Shown here: positions 38,896 through 45,074 of the stretch, piece by piece
Numbering within the stretch: the first letter of the stretch is position 1
Layout: every line of letters starts with the position of its first letter
Assembly (NCBI RefSeq): GCF_000688455.1
Contig: NZ_JIAL01000001.1
Span: forward strand, 3,131,001 to 3,195,000
Source of the DNA: Pseudacidobacterium ailaaui
GTDB lineage: Bacteria > Acidobacteriota > Terriglobia > Terriglobales > Acidobacteriaceae
Reading direction: 5' to 3'
DNA length: 64,000 nt
Notes under the pieces: model-generated
Database searches by the model: none
What the model saw: only the letters and a program-made list of their open reading frames with translations
What the model was told of the DNA's origin: nothing
Translations under genes and position numbers: made by a program

Positions 38896-39728
38896 GGCAG
38901 TACCCCCTTTGTGCGGACGGCCTCATGAACTGCGAGGAGGCTTTCGAGGACAGGCCGAAGGTCCTTGAGGGCCAAGGCATTGGCTCCATCAGACTTGGCC
39001 TCTTTTGGATTGTCGTGGACCTCAAGAAAAACACCATCCACGCCGGCAGCGACTGCAGCGCGCGTCAAGACCGGAATGAATTCAGGCTGGCCGCCGGAAA
39101 CTCCATTGGCAGCCGAGGGCGTTTGCACAGAATGTGTTCCATCGAAGACAACTGGAGCAAACCGGCGCATGATGGGAAGGGAGCGCATGTCCACAACAAG
39201 ATTGTTGTATCCAAAGCTGGCGCCTCTTTCCGTCAGAAATACGCGGGAGTTTCCGGTAGCGGCTAGTTTTTCAACAGCATGTTTCATGTCCCAGGGCGCC
39301 ACAAACTGGCCCTTTTTTACGTTGACTGCACGCCCCGTCCGTCCGGCCGCAAGCAACAGGTCTGTCTGTCGGCAGAGAAAGGCAGGAATCTGCAGGACAT
39401 CGGCGCCTTCGGCGGCAATCTCGCAGTGTCCCGGCTCATGTACATCGGTGAGCACCGGCAGTCCGGTGCTTTCTGCCAGACGGCGCAAAATGGCCGTGCC
39501 CTCGACCAGGCCAGGCCCGCGAAAGCTGGTGACCGATGTTCGGTTGGCCTTGTCATACGAGGCCTTGAAGATATAGGGAACGCCCAGATCTGAAGTTACG
39601 CGCTGGATCGCTTCCGCCATTTTGCGCGCATGGGCTTCACTTTCGATGACGCAAGGACCGGCAATTAAAAAGAGCTTTCCGGCGCCCACGTGGACAGCAC
39701 CAATTTCAAATTCACGACTCACATTCAT
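38892..39728 (-). CDS. kdsA: 3-deoxy-8-phosphooctulonate synthase
   Basis: Condenses arabinose 5-phosphate and PEP to Kdo-8-phosphate for lipid A/core. [31 protein letters not shown] and [10 protein letters not shown] are the expected active-site motifs. ATG 39728 gives 278 residues, the normal length; the in-frame start at 39785 would add 19 unrelated residues. The [13 protein letters not shown] region and the NKEAKSDG-type C-terminal motif (here [11 protein letters not shown]) are conserved. Works upstream of waaA, which is 14 kb away in this window. Confidence 0.97.
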
Positions 39729-39744
39729 GATTGAAACATAAGAT

Positions 39745-39763
39745 CCACTGCACTGAGCAGTGG
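39745..39763. promoter_or_regulatory. Dyad CCACTGC-N5-GCAGTGG upstream of kdsA
   Basis: A perfect seven-base dyad with a five-base spacer, 17 bases upstream of the kdsA ATG. On the minus strand a TATGTT hexamer lies between it and the start codon. It could be an operator overlapping the -35 region or a leader hairpin. Confidence 0.35.
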
Positions 39764-39783
39764 GAGTATTTGCCCGGAAAAGC

Positions 39784-39807
39784 AAAAAGGCCGCATTGAA
39801 GGGCCTT
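39784..39807 (-). terminator. Rho-independent terminator after the first beta-propeller gene
   Basis: On the minus strand AAGGCC (39807-39802) pairs with GGCCTT (39792-39787) around a nine-base loop, and the run continues as TTTTT then GCTTTT. It lies about 78 bases past the stop of the beta-propeller lipoprotein gene at 39885. Confidence 0.6.
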
Positions 39808-39884
39808 CTTGCTCAGAATAACGATAAGGAACGTTCCTCCGGGCCTGCGCTCCGTTCAAGCGCAATCCAGAGTGAAGGAAACCA

Positions 39885-41135: not shown

Positions 41136-41204
41136 GCGCTTCCTTCATCCTGGCCTCAAGCGGCGCAGGTATTCTTTTCGATTCGGGAAGTGACTCCCGT
41201 TTGC

Positions 41205-41210
41205 ATTGTA
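41205..41210 (-). promoter_or_regulatory. Putative -10 box of the first beta-propeller gene
   Basis: TACAAT on the minus strand, preceded by TTT and followed by GCAAACGGGAGT. The equivalent element is at 42700-42705 before the paralogue. No good -35 box is seen at the standard distance. Confidence 0.45.
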
Positions 41211-41273
41211 AAATCCCGGGCCATGTTTGGCATATGACACCCTACATGGCCTATGGTCCTTGCCAACCGCTGC

Positions 41274-42635
41274 TCAGCTTGTGCGTCCGCTGATAGCACA
41301 CCAGGTCGGATTGCCGACGGTATTAAAGGTCGACCCGCGGCGCAGAAGAGTCAGCGAGCCGGATTTTGGATCAAGAATACGTCCGGTAATCTGACTGTCG
41401 TTAAAGCCAGTGGTATACACATACTGGTTTGACGGGTCTTCCAGAATGCAGCTGACCCCGGAGCCTGAACCATACGGCTCTCCGGGAATGGGGGAAAGTG
41501 CTCCGCTGCTCGAATCTACAATGGTAAAACCCGTAATTTCACTGATTGGATTGACGGTTCCTGAGGTGGGCCCGGAATTGGCGACGTAAATAAATTTACT
41601 TTGACTGTCGACGATCAGAGCGGTTGGGTTCTGGGCCGTCGAATCGTTCTGCGTCACACCACTGGACTGCAACTGGAGAATTCCATTGGATCCTACCGTG
41701 TAAGAGCGTATCTGATTCAGACCGGCATCCAGGATATAAACGTCCGAGGCCCCGATCAGAGAGGTACCTTTGGCCGTGGTAATCGCTGACATCCGCTGGG
41801 TGCCCATGGCTAAAGGAGCATTTTGCGTCAGTGTTAACTGACCGGTGGAGCTGTTCAACTGATACGGGAAAACGGTTTGCAGATCATTGTTTGTGGAGCT
41901 TCCAGCATCTGCCGTCAGAACATAGCCGCCGGAGATGGTGAAGTCCACCGGGAAGCAGCCGACCGGGAAGTACGTAAGTTGTACCGTTGTGCCATTGGCA
42001 GTAGTGGCCTGCTGCTGCTGGTTGGTAATAATGGACAGGCGGCCCGTACTGCTGTCAATCGAAAAGACCGTGATCCCTCCCCGCGGATAATACTTTCCAT
42101 CTGAGCCCTGGCAGGGATAGGTGCTGCTATAGCTGTTCTGCGGGGTGAAGGTGCTGGTGAAAGTCCCGTCCGCTTTCAAAATAGGAACATAAGTGTCCAG
42201 AGCGAACATGAACTTGCCGCTCGAATCGGTCAGGATGCGGGTAGTTTTTGAACCCTGGCTGGTATAGCTCAACTGAAAGGCCAGATTTCCGTACCCGCCG
42301 ACGTTGAAAACAGCAATCGTGGCGCCGTTGTAAGTGATGGCGCCGCTTGAGTCTGTCTGTTCCGCCCCCTCATTCAGGACGTAGACATAACGTCCTCCAC
42401 TGAGGACAAGGACCCGCACGGGGTTCGTGCCGCCGGAGCCGTATGGAGATCCCGGAGCCGGGTTTAACGCGCCGGTCTCATAGCTCACACGGTATGAGCC
42501 GATTTGGTTATATTGCGAGCCAACTGTGAAGAGGAATGCCTCTGTGTAATCGTTCCGGCACGAAACAGTCCCGACAATCAGGACTGCGGTAACTACCGCG
42601 GCCAAAGCCATCTGGCCAAACTTTTTAAACCTCAT
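41274..42635 (-). CDS. YncE-like beta-propeller lipoprotein, second paralogue
   Basis: 453 residues with lipobox GTVSC after the hydrophobic leader, then propeller blades such as GGRYVYVLNEGAEQTDSSG and SKFIYVANSGPTSGTVNPI. It is larger than its neighbour because of longer loops, including one around GGITVFSIDSSTGRLSIITN. Both genes have the same 25-base sequence at and before the start codon, showing that the pair arose by tandem duplication including the leader. Function unknown; surface or periplasmic binding is likely. Confidence 0.86.
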   Translation of the reverse strand: MRFKKFGQMALAAVVTAVLIVGTVSCRNDYTEAFLFTVGSQYNQIGSYRVSYETGALNPAPGSPYGSGGTNPVRVLVLSGGRYVYVLNEGAEQTDSSGAITYNGATIAVFNVGGYGNLAFQLSYTSQGSKTTRILTDSSGKFMFALDTYVPILKADGTFTSTFTPQNSYSSTYPCQGSDGKYYPRGGITVFSIDSSTGRLSIITNQQQQATTANGTTVQLTYFPVGCFPVDFTISGGYVLTADAGSSTNNDLQTVFPYQLNSSTGQLTLTQNAPLAMGTQRMSAITTAKGTSLIGASDVYILDAGLNQIRSYTVGSNGILQLQSSGVTQNDSTAQNPTALIVDSQSKFIYVANSGPTSGTVNPISEITGFTIVDSSSGALSPIPGEPYGSGSGVSCILEDPSNQYVYTTGFNDSQITGRILDPKSGSLTLLRRGSTFNTVGNPTWCAISGRTS

Positions 42636-42699
42636 GCGCTTCCTTCATCCTGGCCTCGAATGCGGCGCAGGGAACTTGTTGGGAACCACTCCCGTCTGC

Positions 42700-42705
42700 A
42701 TTGTA
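42700..42705 (-). promoter_or_regulatory. Putative -10 box of the second beta-propeller gene
   Basis: TACAAT on the minus strand in the context TTTTACAATGCAGACGGGAG, matching the element before the downstream paralogue at 41205. Confidence 0.45.
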
Positions 42706-42844
42706 AAACATCAGGACCCAAAACCGTGCATATCACTCAAAGCAGAGCCTGTCAGGCGGACACTCTGTTGTGATCCATAGTTTTCTTGACGGCCTGATTG
42801 TTATTGAGACTTTTCTAATTTTGCACCGTAAGCAGAGGAAAGGG

Positions 42845-42994
42845 AATTTTCCGGCAGGAAAATTTCTTCTCCACAAGGTGCCAAGGCACCGATGAACAGC
42901 ATCGAGGAGGCTGATTTTCGAGCAGCCCTCCACCGGGCCTGAGCGAAAAACTGGCCCGGTAGGAGGGATCGAAGCAGAAATTTTTCTTCTCCAG
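42845..42994. other. Hairpin-rich structured intergenic element
   Basis: The stretch 42636-43010 holds no convincing gene. Its right part is packed with perfect or near-perfect stems: AATTTTCC/GGAAAATT (42845-42864), GGTGC/GCACC (42877-42890), CGATG/CATCG (42890-42904), GGCTG/CAGCC (42909-42927) and CCCTCCACCGGGCC with GGCCCGGT-A-GGAGGG (42926-42967). The last is a 14-pair stem with one bulge and competes with the one before it. Near-direct repeats (minus strand GGAGAAGAAA then A/T run then CTGC) flank the block at about 42854-42873 and 42974-42993. It could be a terminator cluster, a small RNA or a dispersed hairpin repeat. Confidence 0.6.
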
Positions 42995-43010
42995 CACCCA
43001 AGGAGGCCGC

Positions 43011-45074
43011 TCACCATACGCGGCACGGATTGTCCGGCATCATGGGTTGGCCCTGATGGCAGCCAAATGCCTTGCCGAATTCGTCAAAGTTACGTACCAC
43101 GCCATTGACGCGATACATACCGGGGGAATGTGGGTCTACCTTTGCGGAAACCCGCTGGGCCTGCTCGGTCCGGTTTTCGCACCAGATCTGCGCATAGGAG
43201 ATGAAGAACCTCTGTGGCGCGGTATAGCCGTCGATTTTCGTTTCCGGGCTCTTTTGCTCCTCGGCCAGAGTGCTCATCAGCGCCTGATATGCGATCCGGA
43301 TACCGCCGTTGTCGGCCGTGTTTTCACCCAGGGTCAGTTTGCCGTTGAGGTGCGTTCCCGGAACAGGTTCAAAGCCGTCATATTCTTTCACTTCGCATTC
43401 CGTGCGCTCGTCAAAGGCCTTCTTGTCTTCGGGTGCCCACCAGTTCTTCACATTTCCTTTGGCATCATATTTACTGCCCTCATCATCGAAGCCATGCGTC
43501 ATTTCGTGTCCAATCACGACACCGATTGCGCCAAAGTTCACAGCAGGGTCCTTACTATTGTCAAAGAATGGTGGCTGAAGGATTCCGGCAGGGAAGTTGA
43601 TGTCGTTCATGGACGGATCATAGTAAGCGTTGACCGTAGGTGGAGTCATTCCCCACTCTTTTTCGTCCACTGGTTTGCCAAGATGATGGATTTCCCAATC
43701 CCATTGAAAGGCAGCGGCACGCTCTACATTGCCAACCAGGTCATCCCGTTTTACTTCTAGTTTGGAATAGTCCCGCCACTTTTCCGGGTAGCCGATCTTC
43801 TGCCGGAAGGCCGCTAGCTTTTCCTCTGCCTGCTTTTTGGTCTCTGGGCTCATCCAGGGCAGGGACTGGATGTCTTCATCCAGCGCTTTTTTGAGCGCCT
43901 CCACCAGTTTTTCCATGTTCTGCTTTGCGGAAGGAGGAAAGTTTTCCTTGACCCAGTCCTGACCTACGGCCTCACCCATGGCGCGGTCGGTCAGCATGGT
44001 GCAGCGCTTCCAGCGGGCGGTTTGTTCAACCTGTCCTTGCAGCGTCTTCTGGAAGAAGTTGAAATTGGCATCATCAAAATCTCGCGATAGCCAGGGGGCC
44101 ATGCCATTGATGACGTGGAACCGCAGGTAGCTTTTGATACTTTCCAGGCTTTGTCCGTCAAGGACCTCGTTGAGTGCCTTGAAGTAGCCGGGGGTGGCTA
44201 CGTTCAACGTGTCAAAGTGCGGCGCATTCAGTCCGGCAATGTAACCCGACCAGTCAAAGTTGGGGGTGAGCGTATCCAGCTCGGTGACCTTCATGATGTG
44301 ATAGACATTGTCTGGATTGCGCAACTCGACCCGAGGAAGCGACCCTTTGGCCAAAGCCGTTTCAATGTCCAGTACATTTTGGGCCTCTGCCTGGGCCTGA
44401 CTGTCGGAATCTCCGGCAAGCTTGAAAAGCTGCACAATGTAATCGTGATACTGGCTGCGGATCTTCGCCATGCGATCATTGTCTTCCAGATAGTAATCGC
44501 GGTCCGGAAGCGAGAGGCCTCCCTGGGAGGTGCTGGCGATCTGTTTGGTTGAATCCTTCTGGTCCTGCTCCACGCCAAAGCCCATGAATGCATGGATTCC
44601 GTCCTGGGTCTGCAACTCAGCCAGCAGGGGGCCGAGCTGTTTTTTGTCACTGAGGGAATCGATCTTTTTCAGGACCGGAAGAATCGGCTTGTCTCCCAGT
44701 TTGTCTGCGAGGTCCGTATTCATGCAAGCAGCAAAGAAATCACCGTATTTGTGCTGGAGAGGAGATTGCGGGTTGTCTGCGGCCTTTTTAAGGTCGGTGT
44801 AGAGAAGATAGCGGTTATATTCGGCCAGCTCATTAAATCGCCCCCAGCGCACCTGGTCCGATGGGATGGGATTATTTTTACGCCAGTTTCCGCAAGCATA
44901 CTGGTAGAAGTCGGTGCAGGGGTCAGCGGAGGTATCGATGGCCGAAAGGTCGAAGCTGTGAGGGGTTTTCGGAGCAACGGGAGCTGAGCTTCCCGAGTTT
45001 GTTCCGCTGATGCTTTGCGCCATGGCCAATCCAGCACTCAGCAGCAGTACCGAGGCAATACGAATCTGTTGCAT
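43011..45074 (-). CDS. Secreted M13 family zinc metallopeptidase (neprilysin/PepO-like)
   Basis: 687 residues with a signal peptide ending AMAQS. The N-terminal M13 motif FYQYACGNWRKNNPIP is followed by the zinc motif HEMTH (residues 523-527), the downstream GENTADNGG carrying the third ligand Glu, and the C-terminal CRVW conserved in the family. GAGGA lies six bases before the ATG. Expected to cleave short peptides in the periplasm or outside the cell. Monocistronic, and followed by the structured element. Confidence 0.95.
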   Translation of the reverse strand: MQQIRIASVLLLSAGLAMAQSISGTNSGSSAPVAPKTPHSFDLSAIDTSADPCTDFYQYACGNWRKNNPIPSDQVRWGRFNELAEYNRYLLYTDLKKAADNPQSPLQHKYGDFFAACMNTDLADKLGDKPILPVLKKIDSLSDKKQLGPLLAELQTQDGIHAFMGFGVEQDQKDSTKQIASTSQGGLSLPDRDYYLEDNDRMAKIRSQYHDYIVQLFKLAGDSDSQAQAEAQNVLDIETALAKGSLPRVELRNPDNVYHIMKVTELDTLTPNFDWSGYIAGLNAPHFDTLNVATPGYFKALNEVLDGQSLESIKSYLRFHVINGMAPWLSRDFDDANFNFFQKTLQGQVEQTARWKRCTMLTDRAMGEAVGQDWVKENFPPSAKQNMEKLVEALKKALDEDIQSLPWMSPETKKQAEEKLAAFRQKIGYPEKWRDYSKLEVKRDDLVGNVERAAAFQWDWEIHHLGKPVDEKEWGMTPPTVNAYYDPSMNDINFPAGILQPPFFDNSKDPAVNFGAIGVVIGHEMTHGFDDEGSKYDAKGNVKNWWAPEDKKAFDERTECEVKEYDGFEPVPGTHLNGKLTLGENTADNGGIRIAYQALMSTLAEEQKSPETKIDGYTAPQRFFISYAQIWCENRTEQAQRVSAKVDPHSPGMYRVNGVVRNFDEFGKAFGCHQGQPMMPDNPCRVW

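Follow-up and report, generated by a model that had tools for sequence, protein, structure and literature searches.

A hairpin-rich block downstream of an M13 peptidase gene in Pseudacidobacterium ailaaui as a probable transcript 3' end

In Pseudacidobacterium ailaaui, an M13 peptidase gene and a beta-propeller gene, both on the minus strand, are separated by a 375-base gap (42636-43010), and the portion of this gap adjoining the M13 stop codon is crowded with hairpins. What is such a block for? The original prediction, made from the 64,000-nucleotide stretch of DNA analyzed here (referred to as the window), proposed a small RNA, a multi-hairpin terminator, or one copy of a dispersed hairpin repeat family. 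It located the signal after the M13 gene on the minus strand and before the beta-propeller gene, a placement that agrees with the gene coordinates. The features of the locus are collected in Table 1.

Table 1. Features of the M13-propeller locus (positions within the 64,000-nucleotide window)
Feature	Position	Strand	Basis or remark
M13 peptidase gene	43011-45074	-	Pfam PF05649 and PF01431; upstream of the hairpin block
Hairpin-rich block, directly 3' of the M13 stop codon	42836-43010	-	Sequence, folds and fast divergence; proposed transcript 3' end
Imperfect direct repeat, copy 2	42974-42993		17/20 identical to copy 1
Main hairpin	42918-42972	-	-31.8 kcal/mol; starts 38 bases past the M13 stop
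Possible small hairpin CGATG/CATCG	42890-42904	-	Read from the sequence
Small hairpin GGTGCC/GGCACC	42877-42890	-	Hairpin search
Imperfect direct repeat, copy 1	42854-42873		17/20 identical to copy 2
A+T-rich distal hairpin	42837-42872	-	-11.4 kcal/mol on the minus strand, -16.4 kcal/mol on the plus strand
Conserved TTTTACAATGC... promoter-like box and propeller leader	42687-42708	-	Conservation; putative promoter; downstream of the block
Beta-propeller (lactonase-like) gene	41274-42635	-	Pfam PF10282; downstream neighbor of the block

The stems that had been predicted can be read directly in the sequence. The main hairpin is built on a stem of 14 pairs with a single bulged base, whose arms lie at 42926-42939 (CCCTCCACCGGGCC) and 42953-42967, and a second stem, GGAGGCTG/CAGCC(CTCC) at 42906-42913/42923-42931, is mutually exclusive with it. 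The arms of the distal hairpin (42837-42852/42857-42872) are 16 bases long and 81% complementary. The CGATG/CATCG stem is present in the plus-strand fold, absent from the best minus-strand fold, and missing among minus-strand hairpins of -4 kcal/mol or better. The imperfect direct repeats proposed to bound the block were also recovered, matching at 17 of 20 positions; they flank its middle part.

Folding was compared with that of shuffled DNA on both strands, and the block exceeds its shuffles on each. For 42835-43005, the fold z-score is -4.57 on the plus strand and -3.31 on the minus strand, with 0/200 shuffles folding as well in either case, while for 42836-43010 on the minus strand it is -3.07 (1/200 shuffles as good). 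When the 64 kb were scanned in 2554 windows of 150 bases and ranked after G+C correction, only one separate place on the plus strand and two on the minus strand were more structured than the block; the most structured window of the minus strand is 39701-39850. That a G+C-rich gap should fold this well by accident might be argued from the similar fold excess reached at several further sites within the 64 kb; however, the scarcity of equally good shuffles and the hairpin excess that relatives also have at the same place (see below) leave chance as the least probable of the explanations weighed here.

The notion of a conserved RNA was evaluated by sequence alignment. One other genome of the genus (G001, whose contig is the same as that of L077, an Acidobacteriaceae MAG) was compared, and it shares with the window both genes and their order. 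Its alignment with the window block is at shuffle level, with 89/200 shuffles as good, as are those of the near relatives L039-L041; a fourth near relative, L042, gives a weak alignment (12/200 shuffles as good). The propeller-side part of the gap aligns better than all 200 shuffles in all five of these relatives (G001, L039-L042). No Rfam family reaches its gathering threshold at the block, the best sub-threshold score being 19.8 bits against a cut-off of 83, and across the whole window a tRNA outside the block is the only match at gathering score. Because the block lacks above-chance alignment with G001 and with three of the four near relatives, a conserved structured RNA was rejected, and the suggestion of a small RNA of this conserved kind is unsupported. 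A narrower version would be a small RNA specific to this lineage that is processed out of, or initiated inside, the 3' untranslated region of M13 and whose body and end are formed by the hairpins. Small RNAs derived from mRNA 3' ends are a recognized class, and a strong fold on both strands would suit such a molecule; nevertheless, the lack of above-chance conservation just described, the restriction of gathering-score Rfam matches to the tRNA elsewhere, and the failure of a sigma-70 scan to find any promoter at 42500-43100 make this version very unlikely.

Copy number bears on the dispersed repeat. In the organism's own genome (3,686,523 bases in one contig), a BLAST search with the block returned the block only, without a second copy, and the next best match covered 23 bases (E 0.157). 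Allowing up to two mismatches, a search for the repeat pattern recovered the two copies in the block plus two sites elsewhere, each with two mismatches, compared with one match for a control pattern. The input of the covariance model (R1) was the window block entered as two identical rows, so that the model carries only that one sequence and its fold; in the same genome it found the block together with a weak match (E 0.0125; G000:C1:3173777-3173873, plus strand), which is an overlap with the block's own edge on the opposite strand. At the family level, BLAST against 200 genomes (E up to 10, with only four candidates scored in most genomes) gave, as the best foreign match among the scored candidates, 28 bases at E 0.002, approximately what chance would produce in 200 genomes. 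Of 100 family genomes searched with the covariance model, two gave matches at E 0.05 or below, namely the own genome and a single foreign one, whose match at E 0.034 is at chance level for 100 genomes. The exact 38-base pattern of the main hairpin was not found in genome_contigs, nor was its exact pattern found in viral contigs, and searches with the block gave no match in phages and one match of 25 bases (E 0.5) in plasmids. The block resembles REP/BIME or MITE elements in being palindromic, intergenic and bounded by short repeats, but differs from them in being single copy. Since BLAST, pattern and covariance-model searches agree on this single copy, a dispersed hairpin repeat (REP, MITE) was rejected, and this part of the original prediction did not hold.

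A single copy could also be what remains of a short hairpin element, MITE- or REP-like, that had inserted here, with the direct repeats representing old target duplications. These repeats lie 120 bases apart with a score equalled by the best direct repeat in only 2/200 dinucleotide shuffles, the window gap is 88 bases longer than that of G001, and the genome contains one Y1 transposase gene, all of which would be in keeping with an insertion. On the other hand, none of the three genome-wide searches detected a second copy, neither strand of the G001 gap contains the repeat core GGAGAAGAAA, and excising one repeat with the intervening stretch leaves about 55 bases, less than the G001 block of about 105. 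Taken together, these points render an inserted element slightly less probable still than the lineage-specific small RNA. The Y1 transposase (PF01797; L071) is located at G000:C1:279423-279785 on the minus strand, in an open frame of 387 residues.

To place the block in a broader context, M13 loci were collected from two sources: 197 family genomes contained M13 matches, and the 30 best of these matches were used; of 261 matches in genome_contigs, the 80 best were used. Removal of 19 duplicates and one locus without a stop near the match reduced the 110 candidates to 90 distinct loci. The 80 named relatives are nearly all labelled Acidobacteria or genera of the Acidobacteriaceae, and one is labelled Rhodanobacteraceae. 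The M13 gene is followed by the propeller gene in the same direction in 82 of the 90 loci, the window counted among them, and this persistent neighborhood (41274-45074 in the window) therefore suggests a lasting link between the two genes.

Within the first 150 bases past the M13 stop, the best 60-base fold averages -29.1 kcal/mol over the 90 loci, compared with -21.4 kcal/mol for shuffles and -21.7 kcal/mol for a coding control. It beats the shuffle mean in 83 loci and the coding control in 80, with Wilcoxon p values of about 1e-15 and 1e-13, respectively; with the window excluded, these counts become 82/89 and 79/89. The z-score of the best fold is below -2 in 54/90 loci, and 42/90 beat all 40 of their own shuffles; seven loci are without excess over the shuffle mean. 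In some relatives (e.g., L047), the 150-base stretch runs on into the leader of the propeller gene, which is then where the best fold is located. From the M13 stop to the promoter-like box, or to a stand-in end where no box was detected, a hairpin of -15 kcal/mol or stronger occurs in 79/82 syntenic loci, a count made without a shuffled control. Hairpins of -8 kcal/mol or stronger number one to seven per locus, with three in the window, two of them inside the block and the third (offset 214) outside it. G001 has a hairpin of the same strength as the main hairpin of the window (-31.8 kcal/mol), starting 17 rather than 38 bases past the stop. The number and sequence of the hairpins differ among relatives, and the propeller leader further on is conserved. 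Judging from these comparisons, the feature kept after the M13 stop is the hairpin, with its sequence free to change.

The window block is nothing unusual at this position. If hairpins are counted along all 303 bases between the stop and the box, the window ranks 29th of 82 in total hairpin strength and 71st in density, although such a span dilutes the block and a fairer comparison uses the block length, namely up to 175 bases past the stop or to the box where that is nearer. On this basis, its z-score places the window 36th of 82 and its energy per base 30th; if the comparison is restricted to the 44 loci that offer the full 175 bases, these ranks become 22nd and 16th, respectively. In 55/82 loci, the whole fold over this length (at most 175 bases) has a z-score below -2. 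The block is therefore typical of its position, given this middle rank, and the assertion that it is unlike ordinary intergenic DNA fails at the locus. Moreover, a hairpin of -15 kcal/mol or stronger lies within 80 bases past 21 of 47 gene ends in the window, which were chosen by hand from the open reading frame list and where many such hairpins overlap the next gene; hence, hairpins of this strength are not special to the M13 gene.

Because most relatives bear an unrelated but similarly strong hairpin at this position, the block is most likely an ordinary transcript end. More specifically, we consider it to be the 3' end region of the M13 transcript, most likely ending transcription ahead of the propeller gene and/or fixing and protecting the 3' end of the mRNA there, with a probability of roughly 0.8. 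The reading draws on the position, sense and fold of the block, its single copy, and the recurrent unrelated hairpins in relatives. In the proposed mechanism, a group of RNA hairpins dominated by the 14-pair stem would form immediately downstream of the M13 stop, in the orientation of the M13 gene, where it could halt RNA polymerase or fix and protect the 3' end of the mRNA; alternatively, that end might be trimmed back to the stems of the block. The open reading frame list of the 64 kb contains no plus-strand gene ending at the block. The stronger fold of the plus strand relative to the minus strand counts against an M13 (minus-strand) transcript end. Among the three options originally proposed, the multi-hairpin terminator is thus the one that fits best, by position, sense and comparison, with termination itself being predicted, whereas the dispersed repeat and the conserved small RNA were not upheld.

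The block shares with canonical Rho-independent terminators a G+C-rich stem (-31.8 kcal/mol) soon after the stop codon and in the sense of the gene, but unlike them it has no T-run behind the stem. No U-tract follows any of its stems on the minus strand, the main stem being without a T-run in the next 12 bases, and a simple terminator scan reported no terminator in the block, which therefore falls outside the canonical definition. In relatives, at least five T within an 8-base span close to the 3' end of the strongest hairpin occur in only 22/82 loci; T-run-trailed hairpins do appear in some, such as GGCCCGGACTTCGGTCCGGGCCTTTTT in L061. Elsewhere in the window, behind the second propeller gene, AAGGCC-CTTCAATGC-GGCC with a trailing T-run forms a canonical terminator at about 39784-39810 on the minus strand, and the genome thus does hold U-tract terminators.

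A closer parallel is offered by the hairpin clusters reported by Gupta and Pal (2021; PMC8355165) in 13 bacteria. As described there, clusters near stop codons act as terminators, often without U-tracts, which are not required; clusters at most 80 bases from the stop are a common type of terminator, and clusters are favored in G+C-rich genomes. The present block likewise has several hairpins past a stop codon and no U-tract, and its main hairpin starts at 38 bases, inside the 80-base limit. The known clusters are supported by RNA-seq, whereas the present one is a prediction from sequence and folding. A spacing below 15 bases between stems on the minus strand hinges on one weak stem: the gap from the main hairpin to the next stem is 13 bases if the stem at 42890-42904 forms and 27 if it does not, and the stems at 42877-42890 and 42837-42872 are 4 bases apart. 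It appears doubtful that the locus represents either a species-specific multi-hairpin RNA at the M13 3' end acting alone or a mode of termination, free of U-tracts and keeping structure while discarding sequence, that is widespread in Acidobacteriaceae.

If transcription of the M13 gene ends at the block, the propeller gene would then start from its own promoter. A TTACAAT box followed by a conserved leader is present in 62/82 syntenic loci, and in the window it stands 72 bases before the propeller ATG. Because the box is conserved and resembles a -10 element, it is read as a putative promoter, and the propeller gene appears to be independently transcribed; the sigma-70 scan of 42500-43100 mentioned above did not report it as a promoter. 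A structured leader was dropped from consideration, as RNAalifold yielded no consensus structure from 57 propeller leaders (55 distinct), and only sequence conservation is therefore claimed. A nearly identical TTTTACAATGCANACGGGAGT box and leader precede both tandem propeller genes (42687-42708 and 41192-41213, minus strand), and with up to three mismatches they occur nowhere else in the genome.

Overall, the signal is accounted for as a transcript end and is of little importance on its own. The 3' end of the M13 gene nevertheless provides a neat example of hairpins recurring without sequence conservation. It comes from a phylum, the Acidobacteria, that lies outside the hairpin-cluster terminator study, whose 13-genome survey did not include it for lack of RNA data (PMC8355165).
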